A DNA stretch of 35,660 bases from Acidimicrobiaceae bacterium. GTDB taxonomy: Bacteria; Actinomycetota; Acidimicrobiia; Acidimicrobiales; Aldehydirespiratoraceae. The stretch covers positions 1 to 35,660 of the forward strand of contig JAPOQG010000247.1 in assembly GCA_026710865.1 (NCBI GenBank), read 5' to 3'. Both the position numbers and the translations under genes were made by a program. Each line of letters starts with the position of its first letter. Positions within the stretch are counted from its first letter, which is position 1. This document shows positions 25,747-30,364 of this stretch, in pieces. The notes beneath the pieces are model-generated. The model made no database searches. It saw only the letters and a program-made list of their open reading frames with translations, and was not told where the DNA came from.

Positions 25747-26904
25747 TCAGGACGCCGAGTCGAGCGCTTCGGCGCAGCGGTCCAGCGAGTAGTCGATGAA
25801 CTGGCGTGCCCCGCTGTCGTCGTAGTGCTGGTTGTCGCCCATGGCGCCGGCGGCGTGGCGCACCCTCACGCCCTCGATGATGCAGGCCACCCGCCAGAAC
25901 TGCAGGGCCACGTACCAGCCGAGTGACGACAGGTCCCGGTCGGAGCGCCGGCTGTAGCGCTCCAGCACGTCTGCGGGCGTGCCGAACCCCTCGACGGTGG
26001 TGGGCATGTCGGCCAGGCGGCCCGTCGCGCCCGGGTCGCCCCACCAGGTCATCAGCCCGGCCACGTCGACCAGCACGTCGCCGAGGGTGCAAAGCTCCCA
26101 GTCGAGCACCGCGGCCACCGATCCGTCGGCGGCCATGATGCAGTTGTCGAGGCGGTAATCGCCGTGCACGATGCCGGTGCCCTGCTGGTCGGGGATCGAC
26201 GCCACCAGCCGGTCGTGGAGCTCCCGCACCAGGGGCATGTCGCGGTCCGATCCCTCGTCCACCTGGCGCTGCCAGCGTCGCAGCTGGCGGGCGCAGTATC
26301 CCTCGCGGCGGCCGAGGTCGCCCAGCCCCACGTCGTCGGGATCCAGCGAGTGCAGGTCGGCGAGGGTGTCGATGATCGACAGGGCCATCACCGGCCGCAC
26401 CGCCTCGTCCACTGCGATGGCGTCGTCGCGGTCGAACACCACCGAGCCGTCCACATGGTCCATGACGTAGAAGTCGGCGCCGTTCACGTCCGGGTCGGTG
26501 CACAGCCCCAGTGCGGGCGGCACCGGCACCGGCGTGGGCGCCAGCGCCGAGATGACCCGGTGCTCGCGGCCCATGTCGTGGGCGCTGGCCAGCACATGGC
26601 CGGTGGGCGGTCGCCGCAGGACCACCCGGCGTCCGGCGGCGTCGGTCACCACGAAGGTGAGGTTGGACGCCCCTCCCGCGATGGGATCGAAGTCGAGCGG
26701 CGGGACCACCCCCACCTCGGCGGCCAGCCACGCCGTGACCGGCTCCGGATCGATTCCCTTCGGTGCCCGGGCCACGGCGCTAGCGTCGCCGGGCCGCTCC
26801 CCGATTGCAAACAGCAGCGGATCGAGCGGGTCCACTCGCCGCGTCCTGCATCCGGGGATTGTGGCGGCGAGGCCGAAGCCGGCCGAACCTGAAGATATGC
26901 TCAA
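25747..26904 (-). CDS. APH-like phosphotransferase family protein
   Basis: 'IAGGASNLTFVVTDAAGRRVVLRRPPTGHVLASAHDMGREHRVISAL', 'GIVHGDYRLDNCIMAADGSVAAVLDWELCTLGDVLVDVAGLMTWW'. Confidence 0.9.
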   Translation of the reverse strand: MSISSGSAGFGLAATIPGCRTRRVDPLDPLLFAIGERPGDASAVARAPKGIDPEPVTAWLAAEVGVVPPLDFDPIAGGASNLTFVVTDAAGRRVVLRRPPTGHVLASAHDMGREHRVISALAPTPVPVPPALGLCTDPDVNGADFYVMDHVDGSVVFDRDDAIAVDEAVRPVMALSIIDTLADLHSLDPDDVGLGDLGRREGYCARQLRRWQRQVDEGSDRDMPLVRELHDRLVASIPDQQGTGIVHGDYRLDNCIMAADGSVAAVLDWELCTLGDVLVDVAGLMTWWGDPGATGRLADMPTTVEGFGTPADVLERYSRRSDRDLSSLGWYVALQFWRVACIIEGVRVRHAAGAMGDNQHYDDSGARQFIDYSLDRCAEALDSAS

Positions 26905-26943
26905 TGGAGACGACTACGCATCCCAAGGGGAGGTTTCGGCGCC

Positions 26944-28374
26944 ATGTTCACGGGCCTTAGCGCCAGGAACTTCAAGAGTTGGCGAGATGCCGAAAATGTC
27001 GCACTAGCTCCCGTTACAGGGTTCTTCGGCGCGAACAGCTCAGGCAAGACAAGCCTGCTCCAGACCCTCCTGCTCCTAAAGCAGACGGTCGCATCCGCAG
27101 ATCGCCGACAGGTGTTGAACCTGGGTGGTGATGAGCGTTCGCCTGTTTCCCTCGGGTTGCCTCGGGATATCTTCCATCGGAACAATTCTGCTGAGGCGAT
27201 GTCCTTTGGGTTCTGTTGGACGTCTCCAGGAATGGTTGAACCATCGGATCCTACGGATCCTGGCAAGACTCTTTTCTCGGCTGATCAGATCGAGTTCAAC
27301 ACAGTACTGGCCGCGCGAGAACTAAGCGGAGCAGCAGAGCCTGCGAACGAGATTCAACTCTATGTTGAGCAGTTCGTGTATTCACTCGGAGATACTTGCG
27401 TGCAGATGGTCACCAGCAAGGCACCGCGTCACCGAAAGCAGCCGGAGTACCGACTTGAGGCGAGCATCAACGGTGACGACAGCCATCTGACTAGGTTTCG
27501 GGGCCGGGGATGGGCTCTACCGCCGCCGGGCAAGTGCTACGGCTTCCCCGATGAGGTGTTCGCCTACTACCAAAACGCGGAGTTCATGGGTGACATTGAG
27601 CTTGAGCTAGAAAGGCAGTTCCGGGAGAGGCTCTTCTATCTGGGTCCACTCCGCAGCTACCCGGAGCGCCAATACACATGGCAAGGGTCATCACCAGGCG
27701 ACGTTGGCCGGGCCGGCGAGCGGGCGGTCGAAGCTTTGCTGGCGTCGCGCCGAATGGGTAGGCCGAACGCTCGCAAACTCAATCGCCGAGGACGCGCTAT
27801 CCGCCGCATAACGGTAGAAGCGCACGTAGCGGAATGGCTTCAGCAACTCGAGTTGATTGCCAAGTTCCAAGTGGAACGCATCTCCTCCGACGCCGACATC
27901 TACCGCGTCCGAGTGCGCCGTTCTGACACGGCGGAATGGGTGTATCTCACCGATGTCGGTTTCGGTGTGTCGCAGGTGCTTCCCGTGCTGGTGCTTCTCG
28001 CATACGTCGAAGAGGGATCAACGGTGCTGCTGGAGCAGCCTGAGATTCACCTGCACCCAGCAGTGCAGGCAGGCTTGGCAGACATAATCATTGAGGTTGC
28101 GACTGTCCGCCGGGTGCAGATCATCGTCGAGAGCCATAGTGAGCATCTGCTGAAGCGGTTGCAACGTAGAGTCGCGGAACGGCTCATCGACCCCGACCAG
28201 GTAGCTCTCTACTTCTGTGAGATCGCGGGCGGCGCTTCGCGGCTAAGCGAACTCAAAATGAACATCTTCGGCGAGATTGACAATTGGCCCCGAGACTTCT
28301 TCGGAGATCGATTCGGGGAGACTGCGGCCATTGTTGAGGCAGGCCTCAAACAGCGAGCAGATCTGAGTTCGTGA
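26944..28374 (+). CDS. OLD/AAA15-type ABC-like ATPase with DUF3696-like C-terminus
   Basis: Walker A 'FFGANSSGKTSLLQTLLLLKQ'; signature 'DVGFGVSQVLPVLV'; Walker B 'STVLLEQPEIHLHPAVQAGLAD'; 'QIIVESHSEHLLKRLQRRV'; C-term 'ELKMNIFGEIDNWPRDFFGDRFGE'. Confidence 0.92.
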   Translation: MFTGLSARNFKSWRDAENVALAPVTGFFGANSSGKTSLLQTLLLLKQTVASADRRQVLNLGGDERSPVSLGLPRDIFHRNNSAEAMSFGFCWTSPGMVEPSDPTDPGKTLFSADQIEFNTVLAARELSGAAEPANEIQLYVEQFVYSLGDTCVQMVTSKAPRHRKQPEYRLEASINGDDSHLTRFRGRGWALPPPGKCYGFPDEVFAYYQNAEFMGDIELELERQFRERLFYLGPLRSYPERQYTWQGSSPGDVGRAGERAVEALLASRRMGRPNARKLNRRGRAIRRITVEAHVAEWLQQLELIAKFQVERISSDADIYRVRVRRSDTAEWVYLTDVGFGVSQVLPVLVLLAYVEEGSTVLLEQPEIHLHPAVQAGLADIIIEVATVRRVQIIVESHSEHLLKRLQRRVAERLIDPDQVALYFCEIAGGASRLSELKMNIFGEIDNWPRDFFGDRFGETAAIVEAGLKQRADLSS

Positions 28375-28883
28375 TTCGGCCGGTAATCGACACGAATGTT
28401 CTGGTTGTGGCGAATGGCGCCGGCGATGCTGCTAGCCACGACTGCCGACTCGCAACGATCCGCTGGCTGCGTGATGTGATGAGGTCCCGGTCGCTGCTCC
28501 TTGACCTGGGTGTCGAGATACTTGGCGAATACCGGAAGCACTGCAGCCATTCGGGACAACCGGGCGTGGGCGACGAGTTCTTTCGGTGGGCACATGAGAA
28601 CCAAGGCTGGCTTCGTAGGGTCGAAATCTCGCCGGATGGTGCTGGGAGCTTCAAGGAGTTTCCGGCAGACCCGCATCTGGCTTCATTTGACTTGACTGAT
28701 CGCGTATTCGTGGCGGTATCGGTTGCCGCTGCATCGGCGGAGCCTCCGATATCCAACCAGATTGTGAACGCCGTCGATTCCGACTACTCACACTATGAGC
28801 ACGCACTACGTCGGGCTGGTGTTCACGTGACGGAACTCTGTCCGGGAGACTTGAAGCCTCATTCGGACACGTCTTCCGATTGA
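28371..28883 (+). CDS. PIN-like nuclease, translationally coupled to the ATPase
   Basis: 'VIDTNVLVVANG' start, 'DLGVEILGEYRKH', 'DLTDRVFVAVSVAA', 'VNAVDSDY': all expected PIN acidic positions are present. GTG start in a GTGA overlap with the ATPase stop. Confidence 0.8.
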   Translation: MIRPVIDTNVLVVANGAGDAASHDCRLATIRWLRDVMRSRSLLLDLGVEILGEYRKHCSHSGQPGVGDEFFRWAHENQGWLRRVEISPDGAGSFKEFPADPHLASFDLTDRVFVAVSVAAASAEPPISNQIVNAVDSDYSHYEHALRRAGVHVTELCPGDLKPHSDTSSD

Positions 28884-28896
28884 GGAGGAGATTCCC

Positions 28897-29868
28897 ATGA
28901 GGGTCGGCTTCATCGGATTGGGCAATGTGGGGTCGAAGCTGGCCGGCAGCCTGCTGCGCAACGGCTTCGATCTGGTGGTGCGGGACCTGGACCGCTCAGC
29001 CGCGGCCGAACTGGAGGCCAAGGGGGCGGGCTGGGCCGAGAGCCCCGCCGAGATGGCCGCCGGCGTCGACATGGTGATCACCTGCCTGCCCAGCCCCGCG
29101 GCCAGCGCGGCGGTGATGGAGGCCGGTGACGGCATCCTCGCCGGCTTCGCTTCCCGGGACGGCGCCGAGGCCCCGATCTGGGCCGAGATGAGCACCACCG
29201 ACGAGGCCGAGGTGCGCCGCCTGGCCGGACTCGTGTCGGCCGCGGGCGGGGTAGCGGTGGACTGCCCGGTGTCGGGCGGCTGCCACCGGGCCGCCACCGG
29301 CAACATCTCGATCTTCGCGGGCTGCGACCGCGCGACGTTCGAGCGGGCCCTGCCGGTGCTCACCGCCATGGGCCGCAACATCCTGCACGCCGGGGGAGTC
29401 GGGTCGGCGTCGATCCTCAAGGTGGTCACCAACTACCTGGCCTCCGCCAACCTGGTGTCGCTGTGCGAGGCGCTGGTCACCTCCAAGGTGGCCGGCATCG
29501 ATCTCAACACCGCCTATGAGGCCATCCGCATCTCGTCGGGCAACTCGTTCGTGCACGAGACCGAGAGCCAGGTGATCCTCAACGGCAGCCGCGACATCAA
29601 CTTCACGATGGACCTCGTGCAGAAGGACCTGTCGCTGTTCGCGGCGGTGGCCGAGCGGGCCGGCGTGCCGCTGGAGCTGTCGCCGGTGCTGATCGACATA
29701 TTCGACGACGCCGCGGCCCGGTACGGGCCCAGGGAGTGGTCCCCGAACGTGGTCCGCCGCTGGGAGGAGGCCACCGGGGTGTCGGTGCTGGCCCCCGGCT
29801 TCCCGGCCGAGATGATCGACGACGAGCCCGAGGTCCCCGGCCACGAGGTCGTCGTCACCCGCGGCTAA
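28897..29868 (+). CDS. NAD(P)-dependent beta-hydroxyacid dehydrogenase (3-hydroxyisobutyrate dehydrogenase-like)
   Basis: MRVGFIGLGNVGSKLAGSLLRNGFDLVVRDLDR, 'DCPVSGGCHRAATGNISIFAGC', 'GGVGSASILKVVTNYLASANLVSLCEAL'; GGAGGAG upstream. Confidence 0.93.
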   Translation: MRVGFIGLGNVGSKLAGSLLRNGFDLVVRDLDRSAAAELEAKGAGWAESPAEMAAGVDMVITCLPSPAASAAVMEAGDGILAGFASRDGAEAPIWAEMSTTDEAEVRRLAGLVSAAGGVAVDCPVSGGCHRAATGNISIFAGCDRATFERALPVLTAMGRNILHAGGVGSASILKVVTNYLASANLVSLCEALVTSKVAGIDLNTAYEAIRISSGNSFVHETESQVILNGSRDINFTMDLVQKDLSLFAAVAERAGVPLELSPVLIDIFDDAAARYGPREWSPNVVRRWEEATGVSVLAPGFPAEMIDDEPEVPGHEVVVTRG

Positions 29869-30107
29869 AGCGCAAGCTGTTCCAACAACTCCTCGACGGT
29901 CACTTGATGGTGAGCCGCGACGCTCTTCAGGATGCTGGAGAGGGTCTTGACTTTGATCGGGCTGTGAAGCGGGATGACTTCGTGATGCTCGCCGTTGACC
30001 TGTGTGGTGATGCGCACATGGGAGCCGCGTTGCCGGGTAGGTCGGTATCCGTACCGTTGCAGCGCTCGCTGGAGATCGGTTCCGCGCACATCGCGCGGCA
30101 GTCTCAC
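29865..30107 (-). CDS. hicA: HicA-like mRNA interferase toxin
   Basis: 'LQRALQRYGYRPTRQRGSHVRITTQVNGEHHEVIPLHSPIKVKTLSSILKSVAAHHQVTVEELLEQL' with the GSH catalytic motif. Confidence 0.9.
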   Translation of the reverse strand: MRLPRDVRGTDLQRALQRYGYRPTRQRGSHVRITTQVNGEHHEVIPLHSPIKVKTLSSILKSVAAHHQVTVEELLEQLAL

Positions 30108-30364
30108 AGCGAGAGCACTTCGTCCCGGACGAAATGCAGGCGGATCAGTCCGGGGCGCGGCATCGTCTCATCGAAGTAACACTCGACCGCCTCACGGATG
30201 TTCCCGCGGATCTCCTCGACCGTCTCTCCTTCGGTGTGGATGCCGTAGCCCGGGGCGCTGGCGGAGTATCCGCCGTCGATCTCGTCCTCACTGACCTCGA
30301 AGATGATCTCCGGCACGGGTGACGTCACGGTAATCTCCTCTCCCACCGCTTCGACGGTGCTCAC
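30104..30364 (-). CDS. hicB: HicB-like antitoxin
   Basis: 'IIFEVSEDEIDGGYSASAPGYGIHTEGETVEEIRGNIREAVECYFDE'; 4-bp overlap with hicA. Confidence 0.88.
   Translation of the reverse strand: MSTVEAVGEEITVTSPVPEIIFEVSEDEIDGGYSASAPGYGIHTEGETVEEIRGNIREAVECYFDETMPRPGLIRLHFVRDEVLSL

Follow-up and report, generated by a model that had tools for sequence, protein, structure and literature searches.

The window, the whole 35,660-nt stretch of DNA analysed here, carries on its forward strand a pair of genes that overlap by 4 nucleotides (nts). The upstream gene (26944..28374, +) begins with ATG and encodes an ABC-type ATPase of 476 residues, and the downstream gene (28371..28883, +), whose GTG start overlaps the ATPase stop in the tetranucleotide GTGA at 28371–28374, encodes a PIN-type nuclease of 170 residues. 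Both frames and their overlap are where the sequence-only reading, an earlier annotation made from the letters of this DNA, had placed them. An APH-type phosphotransferase gene on the left (25747..26904, −; PF01636, E 1.4e-46) and a 3-hydroxyisobutyrate-dehydrogenase-like (3-HIBDH-like) gene on the right (28897..29868, +; PF03446/PF14833), the latter syntenic in congeners, lie outside the system. No Rfam family and no tRNA were found in the window, and the cassette region yielded no promoter or terminator consensus.

The pair entered this site recently, as a precise and self-contained insertion. In seven congeners (L103–L106 and L108–L110) the site is empty: alignment runs up to 26818–26829 and resumes at 28877–28896, two points that in the congeners lie only a few tens of bases apart, and the APH-type gene adjoins the 3-HIBDH-like gene. 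The strain-specific segment (26830..28883, ~2.05 kb) comprises exactly the two genes, and the listed TTG start of the APH-type gene falls inside it; a repeat scan of its ends found no target-site duplication and no terminal repeats. Its composition sets it apart as well. The two-gene segment has a GC content of 58.6%, compared to 71.3% in the 2 kb to its left and 68.2% in the 2 kb to its right, and GC3 is 65% and 63% in the ATPase and PIN genes against 96% and 91% in the flanking genes. The sequence-only reading had counted GC by hand at 60% and 48% in two lines of the ATPase gene and 75% in one line of the dehydrogenase gene; recomputation returned 60%, 50% and 75%, so that only the middle figure needed correction, and the foreign origin of the DNA is borne out by the low GC and GC3 relative to the flanks and by the empty site in the seven congeners. 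The locus lies outside any defence island, among metabolic neighbours and one HicAB pair. The latter, situated just past the dehydrogenase gene at 29865–30364 (−), consists of a HicA-type toxin gene (PF07927, E 3.9e-10) and a small HicB-like partner; this segment is absent from the compared congeners and looks like a second small insertion.

The ATPase is recognized by Pfam (AAA_21, AAA_15 and DUF3696), by PADLOC, and by its AlphaFold2 model (pLDDT 92.5), whose fold resembles SMC and Rad50 heads as well as OLD, PtuA and GajA. All the motifs picked out by eye in the sequence-only reading are present and conserved across an alignment of 58 ATPases, in which the residues named here are invariant: G29, N31, S32, G34 and K35 of the Walker A motif GANSSGKT (residues 29–36; 27028..27051, +); G341, S343, Q344 and P347 of the signature-like FGVSQVLP (residues 340–347; 27961..27984, +); E364 to E367 and H369 to H371 of the Walker B LLEQPEIHLHP (residues 362–372; 28027..28059, +), first noted as EQPEIHLHP; and E396, H398 and S399 of the switch or H-loop ESHSEH (residues 396–401; 28129..28146, +), first noted as ESHS. 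By analogy with its family, above all PARIS, we infer that the window ATPase serves as a sensor.

The PIN-type partner required a less direct identification. Single-sequence searches of Pfam, NCBIfam and the PDB returned zero matches for the window protein, its family profile found only chance matches in the PDB, and the phage collection contained no match. The acidic residues that had been read as retained are all in place: D7 of the DTN motif (28389..28391, +; kept in 69 of 70 sequences), E53 of the EY motif (28527..28529, +; 68 of 70), D107 and D110 of the FDxxDR motif (28689..28700, +; 66 and 69 of 70, respectively), and D136 of the NAVDSDY motif (28776..28778, +), which is kept in all 70. 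The AlphaFold2 model is confident (mean pLDDT 95.1, pTM 0.90), and the PDB entry that ranks first by fold is that of the SMG6 PIN domain (2hwx, E 0.013, probability 0.84), with the PIN protein PAE2754 also among the matches. Pfam PIN_3 is weakly matched by 31 of the 70 family members (E ≤ 0.1; best 7.6e-5). The conserved acids and the PIN-like model together place the protein in the PIN superfamily, and the assignment of the frame at 28371 holds; the fold support, which comes from a predicted model, is moderate, since no PDB fold matched at E 0.001 or better. A fold comparison with viral structures likewise produced nothing at E ≤ 0.001. Outside the acidic set, two positions deviate in the window protein. 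The near-invariant K112, a lysine in 64 of 70 sequences, is replaced by valine (valine or isoleucine in the nearest relatives), and W139 is replaced by tyrosine. Given the loss of K112, the activity of the window copy might differ.

As a pair, the two proteins already bear a name. Among the PADLOC-DB profiles, HEC-03B is the top match of the ATPase (E 2.6e-138; residues 1–472 on profile positions 1–453 of 458), with NsnB (6.4e-61) and PDC-M55A (9.4e-56) ranking lower, and HEC-03A is the sole match of the PIN protein (E 2.1e-31; residues 5–159 on profile positions 4–153 of 159). The genes adjoin on the same strand with a 4-nt overlap, the operon arrangement of HEC-03. Judged by these profile matches, the window pair is a new copy of HEC-03, a catalogued but little-studied candidate anti-phage module. 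Because PADLOC gives this name to exactly the combination of ATPase and PIN protein found here, the proposal that the cassette is an undescribed system fails, and its placement in HEC-03 corrects that claim. Other parts of the sequence-only reading stand: an OLD/AAA15-type ATPase, a PIN-type partner, a conserved pair, foreign DNA, and a defence context, the last of these in relatives. Its RNA cleavage upon infection is still a proposal, although the RNA ligases described below speak for RNA as the substrate. HEC-03 reportedly originates from a preprint by Payne et al. of 2024. HEC denotes a Hma-embedded candidate (PMC12988326, PMC12111858); several HECs have shown antiviral activity (PMC12988326), and HEC-04 is active against T4 and T5 (PMC12111858). 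A PIN domain has been validated elsewhere according to PMC13092281, which cites four references, the Payne et al. preprint among them. In the literature searched, HEC-03 was mentioned by name a single time, as a survey entry.

Recurrence of the pair was assessed with an alignment of the ATPase alone against 84,980 species genomes, from which the best 80 loci were taken; PIN genes were then detected in these loci with profiles that combined the window protein with its plasmid homologues. In 77 of these 80 loci the next gene downstream, on the same strand, is a PIN gene; the count takes in L034 and L043, whose PIN genes are degraded, and leaves out L027. The exceptions are L036, which has no PIN frame, L047, where the contig ends soon after the ATPase gene, and L027, which retains only a broken PIN gene. 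Since the loci were picked by their ATPase alone, the pairing is not due to chance. The most frequent spacing is the −4 overlap (35 of the best 80 loci), and the overlaps in most loci suggest that the two genes may be translationally coupled. Homologues of the pair reside on conjugative or mobilizable plasmids, and HEC-03A was detected in only 1 of 51 genomes of the family, that of the window, and in 2 of 296 genomes of the class. At three loci the PIN gene is internally deleted, broken or frameshifted beside an intact ATPase gene (L034 6701–6919, L027 after 11377, L043 11389–11781).

A defence context is evident in the relatives. Hma genes or type I/III restriction-modification genes neighbour the pair at 21 of the best 80 loci, and at 4 of these (L025, L039, L064 and L077) it is embedded in the exact gene order HmaA-HmaB-ATPase-PIN-HmaC; in PADLOC, sequences chosen to represent the three flanking clusters hit HmaA, HmaB and HmaC, each with an E of 0. 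The window copy resembles HEC-03 in its two proteins and their operon, with the Hma embedding reproduced in its relatives, and differs in standing alone between metabolic genes, the APH and 3-HIBDH neighbours. Such embedding is the route by which HEC-03 was found and is no requirement for each member. A copy on an Acinetobacter soli plasmid (L012 3811–13284) adjoins an HmaA-like helicase and a DNA methylase; its PIN gene is followed by an HNH protein, not a ligase, and its ATPase is split into two open reading frames.

A further difference from catalogued HEC-03, and the interesting part of the finding, is an RNA ligase encoded by some of the homologues. Of the best 80 loci, 16 have a ligase gene (PF09414) after the PIN gene; counted over the 72 with sufficient contig to judge, the number is 15, which leaves 57 of 72 with no adjacent ligase. 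The window locus likewise has none adjoining the pair. At five plasmid loci, on Aeromonas, Azotobacter, Tistrella and Rhodococcus plasmids, a product annotated “RNA ligase family protein” lies directly 3′ of the PIN gene. Overlapping the PIN gene or closely spaced downstream of it, the ligase genes fall into two subfamilies, LIG1 and LIG2, whose mutual identity is 26–29%. One ligase of each matches PF09414 with E 9.1e-31 and 1.1e-18, and the ligases retain the motif-I lysine and other nucleotidyltransferase residues. The two representatives found no match in PADLOC, from whose models the ligase is absent, and no mention of a ligase-bearing HEC-03 variant was found in the literature searched, which did not cover the HEC-03 source preprint. 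In a tree of 85 ATPases, LIG1 loci make up 10 of the 12 rows of one clade and LIG2 loci 9 of the 10 rows of another, in which the tenth, L089, is cut short by the end of its contig. LIG2 is 39% identical to ligases of jumbo phages and 38% to a Deinococcus ligase, and only 26–29% to LIG1. The separate branches of the ATPase tree, together with the greater proximity of LIG2 to phage and Deinococcus ligases than to LIG1, argue that LIG1 and LIG2 were probably recruited independently, and an ancestral ligase with many later losses is less favoured. Every plasmid ligase that shares 40% identity or more with the Azotobacter ligase occurs in a record that bears the ATPase–PIN pair. The jumbo-phage ligases related to LIG2 come from two uncultured phages (LR745206.1 and LR756502.1), where they might act in counter-defence by resealing RNA. 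A stand-alone DRB0094-type RNA ligase is encoded on another contig of the window genome (L102 1381–2454, −; G000 contig C270; TIGR02306, E 1.1e-50). It was considered as a partner of the window pair and set aside, as nothing links the two: such ligases occur in 4 of 51 genomes of the family, versus 1 of 51 for HEC-03A.

The reading that we prefer, with somewhat better than even confidence, is that HEC-03 is a self-contained module whose ATPase detects infection and keeps a PIN RNase in check, the cuts of which are resealed by ligases in some relatives. The DUF3696/AAA15 ABC-type ATPase would serve as both sensor and restraint, keeping the PIN protein inactive in an ATP-dependent complex until a phage-derived trigger lifts the restraint. 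The freed PIN protein would then cleave RNA, either tRNA or mRNA, by metal-dependent hydrolysis that leaves 5′-phosphate and 3′-OH ends, and this cleavage would halt phage production. In the minority of HEC-03 loci that co-encode a ligase, to which the window does not belong, the ligase would reseal the cuts and so limit or reverse the damage. We infer the sensing, restraint, trigger, RNA substrate, end chemistry and resealing alike. Metal-dependent PIN RNases leave 5′-phosphate and 3′-OH ends, the very ends that are joined by this superfamily of ligases. As the ends match the ligase substrate, a PIN nuclease and a ligase make a chemically sensible pair that would dispense with the kinase needed after PrrC-type cuts, and it is for this pairing that the sense, restrain, cut and reseal reading is preferred. 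That two lineages place a ligase next to the PIN gene points to an RNA target and to damage that may be controllable and possibly reversible; for the window copy, this association supports an RNA substrate only indirectly, because the ligase is missing from most loci. More tentatively, HEC-03 as a whole could represent a cut-and-reseal form of immunity, in which the ATPase unleashes the PIN RNase and independently recruited ligases reseal its products, rendering the damage reversible in some lineages. Under this more tentative reading, copies that lack a ligase, the window one among them, might draw on a ligase encoded elsewhere in their genome.

Several features of the pair would also fit an addiction module resembling toxin–antitoxin systems, in which the ATPase would neutralize a PIN toxin and the main role would be stabilization of the plasmid or locus, not phage sensing: the operon consists of two overlapping genes, PIN is the fold of the VapC toxin, and homologues travel on conjugative or mobilizable plasmids. 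We regard this as unlikely, as the partner is a 476-residue ABC-type ATPase instead of a small DNA-binding antitoxin, and relatives situated inside Hma operons and near restriction-modification genes point to defence. Phage or host DNA as the target of the PIN protein, which would make the pair a DNA-cleaving system akin to Septu or Gabija, is distinctly unlikely. PIN-type folds do occur in DNA-acting enzymes too, and the ATPase fold is common to GajA, OLD, SMC and Rad50 heads, many of them DNA-acting; against this, two RNA ligase subfamilies adjoin the PIN gene in relatives, and the PDB structure closest to the PIN model comes from SMG6, an RNA endonuclease. That the ligase, where present, is a dedicated antitoxin against background PIN activity and not an optional repair module is very improbable: its close or overlapping position directly downstream and the confinement of plasmid-borne LIG1 to records with the pair would suit such a role, but most assessable loci lack it, and on the A. 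caviae plasmid NZ_AP022111 an IS256-like element lies within the ligase gene (L120 4001–8474) beside intact ATPase and PIN genes, whose protein accessions are identical to those of A. veronii NZ_AP022291. On that plasmid, to judge from the interrupted gene, the ligase appears to be dispensable and not a required antitoxin.

The preferred sense-and-restrain reading of HEC-03 borrows most from PARIS, which also couples an ABC-type sensor ATPase to a small nuclease. In PARIS, AriA holds AriB, and release of AriB leads to tRNA cleavage (PMC12409363). However, AriB is a Toprim nuclease, whereas the window partner is PIN-like with HEC-03A as its only PADLOC match, and the window ATPase matches AriA at 1.2e-22, far below HEC-03B. 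Septu (PtuA/PtuB) shares a similar ATPase fold and a separate effector nuclease, and tRNA cleavage has been reported for it (PMC13096335). Its effector PtuB is an HNH protein, whereas the window PIN partner has no HNH match. A likeness to Menshen arises from NsnB, the second-best PADLOC match of the ATPase, which we take to be a Menshen protein from the Nsn naming. Menshen combines a DUF262 gene with a predicted OLD-type nuclease (PMC10952713); the window insertion contains no DUF262 or further nsn genes, and its ATPase prefers HEC-03B over NsnB. DS-5, found by DefensePredictor, is a two-protein phage defence system whose PIN ribonuclease is essential, and cells remain healthy without the partner of the PIN protein (PMC13092281). 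It resembles the window pair in having two proteins including a PIN-type nuclease, but the partner is a DUF5830/AcrIF4-like protein and not an ABC ATPase. VapBC, finally, shares the PIN-fold RNase (PMC13092281), whereas VapB is a small antitoxin and the window partner a large ATPase.

More distant ATPases of the same general type have other companions. On plasmids of Acetobacter and Pseudoalteromonas, the gene after a DUF3696 ATPase encodes a larger protein, of 335 and 296 residues respectively (L112 4746–5753 and L113 4738–5628), and neither product matched Pfam or PADLOC. The window genome itself contains a second, distant ATPase–PIN pair (L002 595–2016 and 2020–2493; G000 contig C262). Its 473-residue ATPase is NsnB-like (E 2.4e-39) and matches HEC-03B at only 7e-22, and its PIN protein matches PF01850 (E 6.7e-6) and no PADLOC profile. 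Further copies of this second pair turned up in two other families of the class, at L117 and L118.
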